NCBI GenBank assembly: GCA_949283375.1 | Contig: CASDSM010000026.1 | Span: forward strand, 1-64,000 | Reading direction: 5' to 3' | DNA: 64,000 nucleotides | Source: an uncultured Eubacteriales bacterium | GTDB lineage: Bacteria > Bacillota > Clostridia > Oscillospirales > Oscillospiraceae | In this document: positions 25,375 through 31,976 of the stretch, piece by piece | How the letters are laid out: the number at the start of each line of letters is the position of its first letter | How positions within the stretch are numbered: position 1 is the first letter of the stretch | Translations under genes and position numbers: made by a program | The notes under the pieces: model-generated | What the model was told of the DNA's origin: nothing | Database searches by the model: none | Seen by the model: the letters and a program-made list of their open reading frames with translations, nothing else

Positions 25375-28300
25375 TCAGAGCGGCTGGGCGTTGATGGCGA
25401 CGCTCCCGATCGGCGTCTCGAGGACGCGGCCCATATAGAGCGCGTGCTCCAGTCCGCGCGCGGCGCAGGCGATGGCCCCCTCGCGCTCTGGGGTATAGCC
25501 GAGGTTCTGGAGGGTGCGCGCCATCAGCGCACGCGCGGTCATGGCGACCTCCTGGCGGAGGATCTCACAGACGGCGTTGGCCGCCTCCTGACAGGAGACG
25601 TCCTGCGGACGCCGGTCGTGCTCTCCCGTCCCGCTGCGCCGCCACTGACGGTAGTGCTCCGGGTCCTGACCGGTGCGCCAGAAGAAGTTCTGCTCCTCCT
25701 CCCGCGTCATCCGCAGTCCCAGCTTCCGCCAGAGGGACGCGCAGTTGCGCCGCAGGTCCTCGTCGCGGTGATCCAGCCCGAAGGCGAGCAGCATCCGGTC
25801 CGTCAGCTGCTCCTGCGCCACCGGGGCCTCCAGCTCGAGCACCTGCTCGGCCACGCGGTAGATCCGGTCGCGGAAGGCGGGCGAGGCCACCTCTCCCGGA
25901 CGGATCGGGATGAGCTTGAGATGGGCGGGCGTGTAGAGCTCCGGCTCCCGGTCCTCGTCCGGTGCAGGCGGTTCCTCCGCCCGGGTGCGCTCGGCCATCA
26001 GGTCCAGCAGATGGCGGATCTGGCCGGTCACCTTCTCCCGGTTCAGCAGCCAGTCCATCGTCCACACGCGGCAGATCTCCCAGCCCTGACGGCGCAGCAG
26101 GTCGGGCTGCGTCAGCTCACGCGCGCGCGTATCCTGACAGGCGGCGTATCCCTCGTCATCCAGCAGTATCCCGAGCTGCCACGCCCCCGGCGCGCGGCTG
26201 GCGCGCACCTGGACGGAGACCGGCGCAGGTCCGGGCTCGGCATGGCATCCCGCCTGCTCCAGCGCGCGGCAGATGCAGCGCTCCAGCTCGCTGCGGCAGG
26301 GATGTCTCTCCTCCTCCGCAGTTGTCTCTTCCCTGCGCGCGCGGTCAAGCAGCGCGGCGAGCGTACCGGCCACGCCGTCCCAGCCGTCCCCCTCTCCCTG
26401 GTCCAGGGAGGAGAAGATGACCAGACGCCGCCCGACCGCCGCCGCCAGCCGCGCCAAAGGGGCGGCGTTCGGCCAGCTGTCGAGCAGGGCGCGGGCAGCG
26501 GAGAGGCCGCCGTCCACGTCCGAGGCCAGGGTGACAGAGAGCAGGACGGTCTCCCATCGCTCCCCCGCCAGCGTTTGCACCGGGCGGACAGGCAGGCTCG
26601 CAAGCTTCCGGGCGACCGCCCCCTCCTCGTCCAGATGGGCGAGCTGCCAGGCGATCTGCTCCGCTTGGCCGGCGGTGAGGGTGACGATGGCCAGCGACCG
26701 GGCGCCGCCGCGCACCAGACCGGCGGCGTGCTCCGCCACAGCGGCGGCCTCGGCCAGGTTGACGCCGTCCTCCAGACGGCCCACCACCGTCTTGTAGACG
26801 CAGGAGCTGGCGCAGGGGTCCGGCCCCGGCAGGCACGGCGTCCGGCTGAGCGCTCCGGGCAGCCAGCGCAGATCCTCCGGGCAGGCCAGATAGCACTGCG
26901 GCAGCGCGGAGACGGCCATCCCCAGCCTCCGGCAGGCGTCCCAGACGCTCTCCCACGGCGGGAACGCCGCCTCCGGCAGCGCTCCCTCCCCGGCGCAGAC
27001 GAGCGCCGTGCGCCCCAGCATGAGGGCCAGACGGCCCACCGGCTCAGGCAGACTCTCCGCGCCGAGCAGCACGACATAGTCAAACGGGGGCTGCTCCGGC
27101 CCGGCGGAGTCCTCCTCCGCGTGTTTGGCGGCGTACTCGCTCCGCTGGGCCTCATAGAGGCGCAGCGCGTCTGCGGGAGAGGCGAGCACGCAGGAGAAGG
27201 TCCGCTCCGTGACCTGCGGCAGGACCCCGATCAGCTCGGGGACCGGCACATCGCAGTGCGCCGTCTGATTGGCCCAGGAGAGCATGCCCCGCTCCTCCTG
27301 GATCTCCTCCTCGCGGGTGTAGTCCGGCAGGCGGGCGATGGCGCGGCTGCGCACCTCGGCGCAGGCGGCCCGGTCAAAGCGCTCCTGCAGGCCGGCATAC
27401 TGGCGCAGCATCTCCCGCGTCTGCCGGGCGGAGAACTGGCTCAGCTCCGGCAGCCAGTCCAGCTCCAGCTTGAGCAGCGCGCGGCAGAGGCTCTTGCGAA
27501 AGAGGGAGGCCGCCTCCGGGTGCTCCTCCGGCTCCTCCAGATAGCGGACAAACGACGTCAGGCCCAGGCGGTCCGCGCGGCGGCTCTCTGCCCGCCAGCG
27601 CATCCATGCCTCCAGCGCTCCGAGATGGGAGACGATGATCTGGCTGCTCTCCCGCAGCTGGTCCAGCCACGGGCCGCCGTCCTGCTCCAGCTGCGCGCAG
27701 GTGAGGCCGGCAAAGCGCTCGCTCTCCTCCTGCGCGGCGCGGAAGCCCTCGCAGAGGGCCTGGGCGCAGGCCTGCGCTCCGGCGTCTCCCGCCAGCTGGG
27801 CGCGCAGGCCGAGGTCTCCCGTCAGCTCCGCGAGCGCCTCATCGGCGTTCACCGCGCGGATGCTCATCGTGTGCAGCTCCTCCCAGTCGGTCTCCTCCTC
27901 CCGGAAGAGGCCCTCCAGCTCGTCGCGCCAGCGGTCATAGAGCGCTGCGATCGCCTCCCGCTCCCGCTGGTGCTGGGCAAAGAGGGCGAGCTCCTGGCCG
28001 ATCTCCCCCAGGGAGACGGACTCCGCCTTCGCACAGTCCTGCAGATGGCGGCGGATCTTCATCAGATTGCGCAGGCGGCGGCAGTCGCTGCGCCGCTCTG
28101 CGAGCCAGTCGCGGCTGTCCGGCTGCCCTGTCCGGCCCACCATCACATCCAGACGGCCGAGGACGCTGCGCGCCCCCTCCCAGCTCTCCTTGAGGTGTCC
28201 GGCGGCGGCCACCGCCTCGTCAGAGCTGCCAAAGCGGCGCAGGAAGTCATCGCTCCCGGTCAGCTCAGCCAGCCAGTCATGGCTCTCGGCCGCCACGACG

Positions 28301-30579
28301 CGGGCGGATTCCAGCCAGATCCAGACGGTATCCTCCCGGTGGTAGACCGAGCCGAGCTCATGCTCCCAGCGGTGGTAAATCTCATCGCACTGGGCGATCT
28401 CCTCCTGATAGTCGGCCAGCCAGCGCAGGCCGTTCTCCAGCACCTCAGCAGTCAGGCGGACGCGGCAGAACGGCTCCAGTTCGGCGCGCACGGAGGTCTG
28501 CCGCCTCAGCCAGCCAAGGCCCCAGCGGCCTCCCTCCTGCTGCCAGCGCGCGAGCAGGGCATTTCCGTCCTGGGTGAGGAAGTCCTCCGTCCAGTCGCGC
28601 AGGAGGACCTCACGGCTCTCTCTGGCGCGCTTGCCGTGGTCGATCAGTTCGCCGACGTCCCAGAGCAGAGCCTGCAGGCTGGCGCACTCGCCCCACTCGC
28701 TGGGGATATCCTTCCAGCGGGCCAGCTCCACCGCGATCTCATAGTTGCGCTCCCACCGCTCTCTGGTATTTGGGACCGCTCTCTCCACCGCGTTGGCCCA
28801 GCGCCGACCGGCCAGCTCCAGCGAACCGAGCAGGCTCTCCGCCTGCGAGAGGAGCTGTCGCAGCTGCCGCTCCCGCTCCGGCTCGGTGGGCAGGGTCCAG
28901 CCCTCGCGCAGGTACTGCCACTGCTGCTCGAGCGCGACGGCATCCAGTCGGAAGACGGGGGCCTCCCAGCGCGAGGCGATCTCGGCATGCAGGCGCGCGG
29001 CGCGGCGGGTGCGCTTCTCCAGCTCCACCACTGCATCCATCAGCAGCGGCAGCCGGGAAGAGCGCGCCCAGCTGGCCGGGTAGTCGCGCCACTCCAGCAG
29101 AAGCGCCGCACTCTCGCACAGGCGGCCCCACTCCTCACGCCGGTCCGGCAACTCCAACCCGGTGCGCTCGCACCACTGCCGTCCCGCCTCCTCCAGCGAC
29201 TCCAGACGGTCCAGCAGGGACTTGGCCGCCTGCGGGATCTGGGATGCGCGCTCCGGGTCATATTCGCTCCCCCAGACGAGGCGGAGGGGATGACCTGCCG
29301 GAGAGCCGATCGCCTGGGCGGCCCCGGCGAGCGCCCCGGCGGATGCAAAGCGCTCCTCCAGCCCCTCCCGGTCCAGATGGCTGAGCATCGGCTCGGGCAG
29401 CGGCAGGGCGCCCTCCGTCTCCTCCTCGCGCAGGTAGCGGCAGACGAGCTGGAAGGGGGTCAGGCCGTGCTTGCCCGGCGTGTGCAGGGCGGCCACCGGC
29501 CGGTCCAGCCGCTGGGCGAGCTGCTCGAGCTGCTGGGAGAGGGTGAAGAAGCCCTCCCCCTCCAGGTCAGGGTGGAGCTGGGCGGCGATATTGTACTGCT
29601 GGAGCACCGCCGCGCGCCGGTCCCCGTGGCTGGGGATGCGCAGGCAGAAGGGGGCGAGCTCCAGCGGCTTGAGACGGGCATAGATCTCCTCCCGGTCCGC
29701 CTCCCGCGGAGAGAGGATGAGGGTGCGCGCCCCCCGGCTCATCGCGTTCACCACGAGCGCCGCGGCGGTCTGCCGCTTGCCGGAGGCGATCGCGCCGGAG
29801 AGGAGGGTGTGCTCTCCCCTGCGCAGGCGGTGGAGGACCTGCGCCTGCGCCTCGTCCAGCGGGAGCGGGGTGAGCAGCGCCTCGCCGTCCTCCCCACTGT
29901 CCTCCGACCCTGCAACCGGCTCTCCCGCGGCCAGAGCGGCCCCCAGCGTCCCGGCGATGGGCGCATCGCACGCCGCGCCTGCCGCCTCCAGCGCCCAGAG
30001 CGGCAGCAGGCAGAGGCAGAAACCGTCCTCCCACGACCAGTCCTCCCGGCCCTCCAGGGCGGCGGTGAGCTGGCCGGTGAGCGTGTTCCAATAGCCGCTC
30101 CACCCCTCGGCGGGCGGCGGGCACTCCGGCGGCAGCAGGGCGAGGGCTGCGGTGTTCGTGCGCTCGCGCTCCCCAGCGTCACAGAGCAGCCACTGCGCGC
30201 CCCACCGCTCCAGTCGGACCGGCCAGAGCAGGAGGGGACCGGTCGCGCCCTCCGGGCCGCTCAGCCGTCCGCGCCCGAGGCAGAGGGTCTCTCTCCCCTG
30301 CAACTCCCCCGCCAGGCGGGAGGCGGCGGCCAGACGGCTCAGATGGCCGTCCAGCGCATCCCCCTCCGCCCCGGGGCAGACGCAGGCCGGGCGTGCGGCG
30401 TCCGCACCCGGCCCGCACACCTGGATGCCGCGCGCGAGTCCGGAGGGGGCAGCCTCCTCCGGCCACACCTGCACGGACAGCGGCCGCTCCAGCCGCTCCC
30501 CCCTGCACAGGCCGCTCTCACGCAGCCAGCGCGTCAGCGTCTCCGCCCAGCTCGTTGCTTGTCTGCTCTCCTGGTCCAT
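25375..30579 (-). CDS. Large degenerate DUF4011/DUF3320-type helicase-nuclease-like protein
   Basis: The 1734-residue protein follows the layout of DUF4011-type SF1 helicases: an N-terminal region, a P-loop segment near residue 268, a long charged helical middle (about 300-1130), helicase motifs near 1170 and 1330-1390, a Vsr-like nuclease region (about 1430-1510), and a DUF3320 domain (about 1570-1625). Almost every catalytic motif is altered. Walker A reads GAIASGKRQT (Lys268 kept, Thr/Ser replaced by Arg269). Walker B reads LLGAES (about 1172-1176) instead of a DEAS-type motif. The motif VI arginines are eroded, and the nuclease GIECDG motif reads GILLDDEG with the preceding Asp also missing. 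ATG 30579 has a weak SD (GGGGAA). Function unknown; probably a scaffold or nucleic-acid-binding pseudoenzyme. Confidence 0.75.
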   Translation of the reverse strand: MDQESRQATSWAETLTRWLRESGLCRGERLERPLSVQVWPEEAAPSGLARGIQVCGPGADAARPACVCPGAEGDALDGHLSRLAAASRLAGELQGRETLCLGRGRLSGPEGATGPLLLWPVRLERWGAQWLLCDAGERERTNTAALALLPPECPPPAEGWSGYWNTLTGQLTAALEGREDWSWEDGFCLCLLPLWALEAAGAACDAPIAGTLGAALAAGEPVAGSEDSGEDGEALLTPLPLDEAQAQVLHRLRRGEHTLLSGAIASGKRQTAAALVVNAMSRGARTLILSPREADREEIYARLKPLELAPFCLRIPSHGDRRAAVLQQYNIAAQLHPDLEGEGFFTLSQQLEQLAQRLDRPVAALHTPGKHGLTPFQLVCRYLREEETEGALPLPEPMLSHLDREGLEERFASAGALAGAAQAIGSPAGHPLRLVWGSEYDPERASQIPQAAKSLLDRLESLEEAGRQWCERTGLELPDRREEWGRLCESAALLLEWRDYPASWARSSRLPLLMDAVVELEKRTRRAARLHAEIASRWEAPVFRLDAVALEQQWQYLREGWTLPTEPERERQLRQLLSQAESLLGSLELAGRRWANAVERAVPNTRERWERNYEIAVELARWKDIPSEWGECASLQALLWDVGELIDHGKRARESREVLLRDWTEDFLTQDGNALLARWQQEGGRWGLGWLRRQTSVRAELEPFCRVRLTAEVLENGLRWLADYQEEIAQCDEIYHRWEHELGSVYHREDTVWIWLESARVVAAESHDWLAELTGSDDFLRRFGSSDEAVAAAGHLKESWEGARSVLGRLDVMVGRTGQPDSRDWLAERRSDCRRLRNLMKIRRHLQDCAKAESVSLGEIGQELALFAQHQREREAIAALYDRWRDELEGLFREEETDWEELHTMSIRAVNADEALAELTGDLGLRAQLAGDAGAQACAQALCEGFRAAQEESERFAGLTCAQLEQDGGPWLDQLRESSQIIVSHLGALEAWMRWRAESRRADRLGLTSFVRYLEEPEEHPEAASLFRKSLCRALLKLELDWLPELSQFSARQTREMLRQYAGLQERFDRAACAEVRSRAIARLPDYTREEEIQEERGMLSWANQTAHCDVPVPELIGVLPQVTERTFSCVLASPADALRLYEAQRSEYAAKHAEEDSAGPEQPPFDYVVLLGAESLPEPVGRLALMLGRTALVCAGEGALPEAAFPPWESVWDACRRLGMAVSALPQCYLACPEDLRWLPGALSRTPCLPGPDPCASSCVYKTVVGRLEDGVNLAEAAAVAEHAAGLVRGGARSLAIVTLTAGQAEQIAWQLAHLDEEGAVARKLASLPVRPVQTLAGERWETVLLSVTLASDVDGGLSAARALLDSWPNAAPLARLAAAVGRRLVIFSSLDQGEGDGWDGVAGTLAALLDRARREETTAEEERHPCRSELERCICRALEQAGCHAEPGPAPVSVQVRASRAPGAWQLGILLDDEGYAACQDTRARELTQPDLLRRQGWEICRVWTMDWLLNREKVTGQIRHLLDLMAERTRAEEPPAPDEDREPELYTPAHLKLIPIRPGEVASPAFRDRIYRVAEQVLELEAPVAQEQLTDRMLLAFGLDHRDEDLRRNCASLWRKLGLRMTREEEQNFFWRTGQDPEHYRQWRRSGTGEHDRRPQDVSCQEAANAVCEILRQEVAMTARALMARTLQNLGYTPEREGAIACAARGLEHALYMGRVLETPIGSVAINAQPL

Positions 30580-30598
30580 AGCAGTTCCCCATTCCAAC

Positions 30599-30671
30599 GC
30601 CGGCCTCACAGCCGGCAGAGATTTCCATATTCCTACAGGATAAGTATAGCAGAATCCCCCGTTTGTGAAAA
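30599..30671 (-). promoter_or_regulatory. Promoter and leader hairpin of the helicase-like gene
   Basis: On the minus strand TTTTCA (30671-30666), 17 bases, TATACT (30648-30643). Between the start point and the ATG, GCCGGC (30599-30604) and GCCGGC (30611-30616) form a small hairpin. Confidence 0.6.
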
Positions 30672-30706
30672 GCGTTTCCCGGAAGTTTTCCGCCCGGAAA
30701 GCGGAA

Positions 30707-30747
30707 CACGCCGCAGCGGCCGGTCCGTTCCGGCGCGCTGCGGCGTG
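30707..30747 (-). terminator. Hairpin terminator of the flavodiiron gene
   Basis: CACGCCGCAGC (30707-30717) pairs with GCTGCGGCGTG (30737-30747), 18 bases after the leftward stop; the U-tract is short. Confidence 0.65.
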
Positions 30748-30764
30748 AGGGGGCGTGTTTGGCC

Positions 30765-31976
30765 TCAGCCCTGCGGGGCGAGGTCTGCGAGGATGGCGTC
30801 GCGGAGCTGGTCCAGAGCGGCGCGGCTGTCCGCCTTGAGGGCGGACTTGAGGGTGACGGTGGGCTCGAGGATGCGCATCTGCTTCATCCCCTCCAGGGCG
30901 GCGCGCATCTGCTTGCCGCTCATCGGGGCCCAGGTGCCGTTCTCGATCAGGCCGACGGTGCGCTTCTGGACGCTGAGATTCTTCATGTCCTCCAGGAAGT
31001 TCGCCATGGCGGGATAGACCCCGGCGTTGTAGGTCGGTGCGGCGAAGACGAGGTGGCTGCACCGGAACGCCTCGGCGATCAGGGTGGAGACGTGGGTGAC
31101 GGAGACGTCATAGACGGCGACCTTCTTCACGCCGCCCTCGGCGAGGCCGGCGGCGAGGACGTTCGCGGCGCTCTCGGTGTCGCCGTACATGGAGGCGTAG
31201 AAGATGGCGACCGCCTGCTCCTCCGGCTCATAGCGGCTCCAGAGGTCGTACTTGCCGAGCAGATACCCGAGGTCGCCCCGCCAGACCGGGCCGTGCAGGG
31301 GGCAGATCATGGCGATCTCCACCCCGGCGAGCTTTTTGAGGGCCGCCTGGACCTGCGGGCCGTACTTGCCGACGATATTGGTATAGTACCGGCGGGCGTC
31401 GTCCAGCCAGTCGCGGTCGAAGTCCACCTCGTCCTGGAAGAGGTTGCCGTTGATCGCGCCGAAGCTGCCGAAGGCGTCGGCGGAAAAGAGGATCTGCTCG
31501 GACTCCTCATAGCTCACCATCACCTCCGGCCAGTGGACCATCGGGGCCATGACAAAGCGCAGGGTGTGGCTGCCGAGGCAGAGGGTGTCCCCCTCCTTGA
31601 CGGTGACGGTGCGGCCGGTGAGATCGAGGTCGTAGAACTGGCGCAGGAAGAGGAAGGTCTTGGCATTGCCGACGAGCTTCATCTCAGGGAAGCGCAGGGC
31701 GAGGGCGGCGATGTTCGCGCAGTGGTCCGGCTCCATGTGGTTGATCACCAGATAGTCCAGCGCCCGGCCATCGAGCACATGCAGGACGTTTTCCATAAAC
31801 TGGGCGGAGACGGAGGCGTCCACCGTGTCGAGCAGGGCGGTCTTCTCATCGTCGATCAGATAGGAGTTATACGAGACGCCGCGGGGAATGGGAAAGAGAT
31901 TCTCAAACAGGGCGAGGCGGCGGTCAGAGGCGCCCACCCAATGGACGGACTCGGTCACTTTACGGGTACAGTACAT
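30765..31976 (-). CDS. Flavodiiron protein (FprA type, O2/NO reductase)
   Basis: The 403-residue protein has an N-terminal metallo-beta-lactamase-like diiron domain with the ligands His80, Glu82, Asp84, His85, His148, Asp167 and His228, all visible, and a C-terminal flavodoxin domain (about 255-400; the FMN loop around ASMYGDTE). Such proteins reduce O2 to water or NO to N2O in the cytoplasm of strict anaerobes and protect against oxygen or nitrosative stress. There is no rubredoxin domain fused. ATG 31976 follows AAGGAG; the frame upstream lacks an SD. Confidence 0.95.
   Translation of the reverse strand: MYCTRKVTESVHWVGASDRRLALFENLFPIPRGVSYNSYLIDDEKTALLDTVDASVSAQFMENVLHVLDGRALDYLVINHMEPDHCANIAALALRFPEMKLVGNAKTFLFLRQFYDLDLTGRTVTVKEGDTLCLGSHTLRFVMAPMVHWPEVMVSYEESEQILFSADAFGSFGAINGNLFQDEVDFDRDWLDDARRYYTNIVGKYGPQVQAALKKLAGVEIAMICPLHGPVWRGDLGYLLGKYDLWSRYEPEEQAVAIFYASMYGDTESAANVLAAGLAEGGVKKVAVYDVSVTHVSTLIAEAFRCSHLVFAAPTYNAGVYPAMANFLEDMKNLSVQKRTVGLIENGTWAPMSGKQMRAALEGMKQMRILEPTVTLKSALKADSRAALDQLRDAILADLAPQG

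Follow-up and report, generated by a model that had tools for sequence, protein, structure and literature searches.

Why would a bacterial lineage keep a 1734-residue protein with the layout of a helicase-nuclease after nearly all of its catalytic motifs have gone? The gene that raises this question lies in the window, the 64,000-nucleotide stretch of DNA analysed here, which comes from an uncultured bacterium of the Oscillospiraceae. It is encoded on the minus strand (25375..30579), with its ATG at 30579 and its stop at 25375. A sequence-only reading of the window had given these coordinates and this length without naming a strand, and both are right once the minus strand is read. A plus-strand gene at 25375-30579 was rejected: the frame is open, but its product has no family match in Pfam, PADLOC or NCBIfam. 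In the window this antisense frame stays open for 1857 codons (25444-31017, plus strand). Since stops (1–11 per copy) interrupt it in 10 of the 12 copies tested, the window's own copy being one of the 12, the long plus-strand frame is a G+C artefact; it is open in the window and in L004. The 185-base gap to the upstream gene holds a single promoter-like site on the minus strand, TTTTCA-17-TATACT with an extended TG (30671-30643, that is 30643..30671). It agrees with the consensus at 9 of 12 positions, with 0.0 such sites expected in shuffles, and is in line, as a consensus match only, with the proposal that the gene has its own promoter.

We refer to the protein as pseudo-ProA. With a probability of roughly 60%, we regard it as a domesticated pseudo-enzyme, a putative non-catalytic scaffold or sensor that would derive from the anti-phage protein ProA. 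The structural or regulatory role suggested in the sequence-only reading is likewise putative.

Relationship to ProA and domain layout

The best curated match of the window protein is NCBIfam NF058533, "anti-phage protein ProA", at 406.3 bits, which does not reach the cut-off of 1500; the PADLOC model PDC-S37 gives 254 bits. The match to Hhe (NF042953), a DUF4011 anti-phage protein, is weaker (70.8 bits, far under the cut-off of 2000) and covers the second helicase half, the nuclease and part of the C-terminus. Among Pfam families, MTES_1575 (PF18741) passes its gathering score (39.6 bits, cut-off 38.2; 43.4 bits in the sister protein L002), and the DUF3320, DUF4011 and DEAD matches are all under their own cut-offs. 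The predicted order of DUF4011, SF1 helicase and MTES_1575 nuclease was recovered, and it is that of a ProA relative. A profile of the window clade aligns with that of ProA over 1437 columns (E 5e-134), from the start of DUF4011 to the C-terminal end. The alignment begins at ProA column 435, and the N-terminal ~430 residues of ProA are absent from the clade. Descent from a defence protein, which had been suggested as a possibility, is supported by this best curated match (406 bits) and by a tree that joins the clade to ProA sequences.

The outer domains survive as remnants, namely DUF4011 at residues 73–144 (30148..30363, minus strand; E 0.022, under the gathering score) and DUF3320 at residues 1567–1602 (25774..25881, minus strand; E 0.019, also under it). 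Sequence matches among solved structures are to generic SF1 proteins, other helicases or P-loop proteins, and structure predictions with two sequences as input reached pLDDT 35 and 38. The persistence of the helicase and nuclease folds in the window clade is therefore suggested by the profile matches.

Erosion of the helicase and nuclease sites

Motifs were read from an alignment of 37 rows: 8 orthologues, 14 ProA-type sequences (13 over the ProA cut-off and L055 under it), 8 and 5 members of two further groups of relatives (f16 and f19, see below), and 2 others. L056, L082, L086, L087 and L101, with shorter or weaker matches, and L088, with no match, were dropped before the motif counts and the tree. 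Motifs I, II, III, V and VI, defined by the ProA patterns, are all present in 14/14 ProA-type rows and none is present in any of the 8 full-length orthologues; over the window clade, f16 and f19 together, none of the five occurs in any of 21 rows. The dropped sequences L056 and L101 have DEAS, GDxxQ, QGDERD, LNVA and IECD, the Walker A pattern being absent from the piece read, and L082, L086 and L087 have none of the ProA patterns. A shifted alignment, which the sequence-only reading had named as the way in which it might be wrong, is excluded as the reason for the missing motifs, since the intact motifs of the homologues occupy the same columns in all 14 ProA-type rows.

The individual changes in the window copy had been read correctly. 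Its Walker A (residues 262–269, GAIASGKR; GPPGTGKS in ProA; 29773..29796, minus strand) lies in the stretch SGAIASGKR, where Lys268 is followed by Arg269. Motif II (Walker B, residues 1166–1178; 27046..27084, minus strand) reads FDYVVLLGAESLP, compared to FDxVxFDEASQ in ProA, and contains VVLLGAES instead of a DEAS-type motif. Motifs V and VI (residues 1330–1395; 26395..26592, minus strand; NVQGDERDV and RRLNVAxSRAR in ProA) are likewise eroded, with both arginines of SRAR replaced. The first of these arginines (alignment column 1381) is lost in all 8 full-length orthologues; the second, missing in the window, is present in 5 of the 8 (5/7 other than the window).

The description "almost all catalytic motifs lost" fits the window copy better than the clade as a whole, since 6 of 13 orthologues have a usable Walker A. 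By column, G-T-G-K-T is intact in these 6, Lys has become Arg in 5, which form one subclade, and Lys is kept with Ser/Thr changed to Arg in 2, the window and its sister G010. The DE of motif II is found in 0/13 orthologues, its Asp being retained in 8, and the GD of motif III in one (L004). Because Walker A is intact in 6/13, some orthologues may still bind ATP. The same six sites could be taken to favour a nucleotide-binding switch that binds ATP without hydrolysing it and for which Walker A would be important throughout the clade. We consider such a switch quite unlikely, as the Lys-to-Arg and Ser/Thr-to-Arg changes (5/13 and 2/13) sit on two separate branches of the rpoB tree and no orthologue has the motif II DE.

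The nuclease-like domain (residues 1435–1523; 26011..26277, minus strand) had been described as lacking both its Asp and the Glu of GIECDG. Both are absent from the window protein; the two losses differ in age, however. The Glu column is Leu in the window and Leu, Met or Ser in above-cutoff ProA, so loss of the Glu was rejected as an event of the window clade: it predates the clade, and 0/13 above-cutoff ProA proteins have the residue. The Asp column (RID) is Ser or Ala in 12 of the 12 orthologue rows that reach it. In 5 of the 12 (L003, L004, L008, L010 and L020), the preceding column holds an Asp, and a one-residue shift of the nuclease Asp is conceivable in that subclade. Judged from these columns, the clade's own nuclease loss is the Asp preceding the Glu.

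Most of the 13 above-cutoff ProA nucleases read ILLDG or a close variant in place of GIECDG, and the window clade shares this form with its nearest ProA proteins. Relatives that do have the Glu are L055, L056 and L101, all under the cut-off, as well as L089 (IECD) and L090 (VEFDG). As the residue is missing above the cut-off and present in relatives below it, the nuclease of ProA itself may not be a standard one.

The duplicated arm and purifying selection

The arm between motif Ia and motif II, predicted as all helical at pLDDT 38 only, consists of four modules on the minus strand: a (residues 469–593; 28801..29175), b (594–737; 28369..28800), c (738–883; 27931..28368) and d (884–1011; 27547..27930). 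ProA columns 949-1090 (module X) are matched twice, by a (columns 949-1065) and by b, with E-values of 8e-13 for a, 2.5e-18 for b and 1.8e-10 between the two. Modules c and d both match columns 1096-1219 (module Y; 1096-1191 for c), with E-values of 3e-7 for c, 9e-16 for d and 7e-12 between them. The self-repeat of the profile is strong in the window clade (E 4e-18) compared to ProA (E 0.002 only); the arm is single in ProA and doubled here. Against the f16 profile, a and b fall weakly on one place (probability 5 and 45%) and c on none. Since f16 thus shows at most weak matches to single modules, the doubling looks special to the window clade.

Of 254 columns invariant in 12 ProA proteins (the ProA-type rows without L044 and L055), the window departs from ProA at 162, and all 8 orthologues retain 45. 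Polar columns are kept in 12 of 122 cases and the others in 33 of 132. In ProA, block conservation scores are 0.79–0.87 for the helicase motifs and 0.33–0.48 for the arm blocks with most aligned columns; in the window clade, arm residues 551–850 score 0.69–0.82 and the helicase blocks 0.48–0.64, a comparison at the level of regions, as ProA has few or no aligned letters over 501–600 and 701–850 and the ProA set is taxonomically wider. Modules b and c are among the clade's most conserved stretches, and the DUF3320 block 1551–1600 is also high (0.71). On these scores, conservation is inverted: the arm, which is variable in ProA, is the best-conserved part of the window clade.

Low conservation at the former active sites, together with the eroded motifs, could also be expected of a decaying relic on its way to loss. 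The sequence-only reading had pointed to a dN/dS near 1 as the mark of such decay. The YN00 estimates are 0.10 for L003/L004, 0.105 for L003/L010 and L004/L010, 0.08 for L003/L008, 0.09 for L004/L008 and 0.10 for L005/L006 (dS high, 1.7, in this last pair); NG86 gives 0.15–0.26 for the same six pairs and 0.37 for the window and L002. With 0.08–0.37 in seven pairs, the gene is maintained and decay is contradicted. A scan of 3 of the 7 pairs in 33 windows, each 150 codons long, gives NG86 dN/dS values from 0.15 to 0.56. No internal stop interrupts the matched stretch in any of the 13 carrier genomes (5 copies are cut by contig ends). With the arm well conserved and the gene retained across the placed clade, a relic is hardly credible. 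By these comparisons, pseudo-ProA is a pseudo-enzyme under purifying selection whose catalytic sites have been lost.

RecC and AddB are inactivated SF1 helicases that have been kept as working non-catalytic subunits, and the window protein would resemble them in combining an eroded SF1 helicase and an eroded nuclease in one very large chain. By this analogy, it could be a RecC-like non-catalytic subunit of a DNA-end or fork-processing complex whose active helicase is encoded elsewhere, for which the doubled and conserved arm would also speak. A replacement of AddB was rejected, as AddA and AddB are separately present in 13/13 carriers; over the genus, AddA is above its cut-off in 29 of 32 genomes and AddB is matched in 31 of 32, always under the AddB cut-off. 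In addition, the clade proteins are acidic (pI 4.9–5.2, net charge -2.8 to -4.8 per 100 residues), which does not appear to favour simple DNA binding, although the 14 ProA-type rows overlap with them (pI 5.0–6.3, net -0.8 to -4.1 per 100 residues). A RecC-like subunit therefore appears unlikely to us, and a scaffold or sensor derived from ProA remains the preferred reading.

The composition of the clade proteins is also distinctive in tryptophan, which is unusually high at 2.6–3.2% in the 8 orthologues vs 1.0–1.7% in the 14 ProA-type rows.

Inheritance, neighbours and other motif-less relatives

Matches were found in 18 of 59 genomes searched, 32 of which are from the genus. Thirteen, all in the genus, hold the window type, comprising the window copy, another 7 that are complete and 5 truncated at contig ends, with 39–70% identity; the other 5 matches (G014, G023, G025, G037 and G050) are weaker and ProA-like. 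Among 300 genomes sampled from across the family, 22 match, two of them, both in the genus, with more than 2400 bits and the other 20 with at most 384 bits; three of these 20 were read (L134, L135 and L137) and have the ProA motifs wherever the piece reaches. Above-cutoff ProA occurs in 1/32 genus genomes and 12/297 genomes of the order.

An rpoB tree of 28 genomes, some with fragmentary rpoB, places 12 of 12 carriers in one clade (local support 1.000) with none of the 16 placed non-carriers inside. The carrier G030 and the non-carriers G001, G005 and G029 are not in this tree; G005 is 67% complete and might be a member of the carrier clade whose copy is missing. Unrooted, the tree built from the 8 full-length orthologues agrees in topology with that of rpoB, in which some nodes are weak (0.52). 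In the placed genomes, the gene thus appears to be inherited along the species tree within one clade, unlike ProA, which is patchy.

Neighbouring genes are shared within subclades (window/G010; G003/G019/G013; G016/G007) and not across all of them, and the position of the gene varies between subclades. Around the window gene are transporter parts, an ODP-type metallo-beta-lactamase/flavodoxin protein, a GGGtGRT protein, an RNA pseudouridine synthase, a radical-SAM protein and a class-V aminotransferase. Among ten window neighbours, the search for defence genes returned only generic matches, to the class-V aminotransferase (PADLOC SspA/DndA) and the radical-SAM protein.

These observations bear on whether pseudo-ProA still serves in phage defence, as a non-catalytic sensor, guard or decoy that would bind phage DNA or protein and signal through another effector. 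The parent family is named anti-phage, and rapid divergence, which would then reflect an arms race, is seen: identity between subclades is 39–53% vs 87–93% for rpoB, and in the G003/G019/G013 block the gene diverges faster than several flanking genes. Set against this, the gene is inherited with its clade in a housekeeping context instead of being patchy, with no defence island visible and no effector among the neighbours scanned, and NG86 dN/dS is below 1 in each of the 33 windows in 3 pairs. We regard a continuing defence role as possible but rather doubtful, and favour a domesticated scaffold or sensor.

ProA relatives without the ProA motifs were also found in two other families. The f16 type (L072-L079, ~1680 residues) is present in 11 of 12 genomes and all 8 genera of its family, and the f19 type (L080-L085) in 7 of 32 genomes and 4 of 12 genera. 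None of the 8 f16 rows keeps any of the five motifs, a Walker-like G-K-T surviving in 6; the f19 group is still more eroded, with the Walker Lys in 1 of 5 rows read and no Pfam match at E 0.1 for L085. Like the window clade, the f16 relatives lack the ProA motifs clade-wide; unlike it, they have at most weak matches to single arm modules, and in both f16 and f19 the match to ProA begins in the N-terminal part while the C-terminal end is missing, the reverse of what is seen in the window clade. In the tree, where backbone supports are 53–82, the window clade branches next to a subgroup of ProA and separately from f16 and f19. A single origin of the three motif-less groups appears less likely than separate origins in this tree; an AU test did not reject a single origin (p 0.27, from 2000 resamplings instead of the 10000 recommended by the program).

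A scaffold or sensor could have arisen as follows. An ancestor of one Candidatus Onthomonas-type clade (Oscillospiraceae) would have carried a helicase-nuclease of the anti-phage ProA kind. As the sequences show, its descendant is without the first ~430 residues of ProA, no longer has the signatures of the ATPase and motor or the Asp of the nuclease, and carries a doubled arm. Neither unwinding driven by ATP nor cutting would be part of how the resulting protein works; as a fixed scaffold or sensor, it may hold nucleic acid or the surface of a former partner with its remnant helicase and nuclease domains and bind a host or phage protein through the doubled arm. More tentatively, ProA might have given rise, on more than one occasion within a single bacterial order, to inherited core proteins that neither unwind nor cut; here the doubled arm, which would formerly have served the motor, would do the work in a new RecC-like or sensor complex. 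We hold this broader proposal to be less probable than not.

Defence genes are commonly seen as coming and going with mobile islands. In this lineage, a defence helicase seems to have settled as a permanent gene for a non-enzymatic protein, and the record of the parts that were freed (motor and nuclease) and held (arm) is clear. If the losses in the two other families were independent, they would show that immunity proteins can repeatedly be recruited to cell biology, and a search for the target recognised by ProA itself could start directly from the arm. HamB of Hachiman is described as a sensor helicase for DNA damage and indicates that immune helicases can watch genome integrity (PMC12278908). 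By analogy, a dead ProA that still senses would fit genome watching of the HamB kind. In Pseudomonas, a DUF4011 gene is described as bordering a defence hotspot and as occurring in all P. aeruginosa isolates (PMC10250203). Among titles and abstract starts in the open-licence literature, none described a dead ProA or DUF4011 protein, and the search for viral relatives gave 8 pattern matches, of which 0 were confirmed.

The below-cutoff ProA relative L101 (G014) has a CapP-like protein and a DNA methyltransferase in its vicinity (L101 3346-4122 and 13511-14353), as in a defence island. Genome G012 carries both an intact ProA and a dead relative (G012:C9 and G012:C10; L100 and L097), so the two can coexist in one genome.
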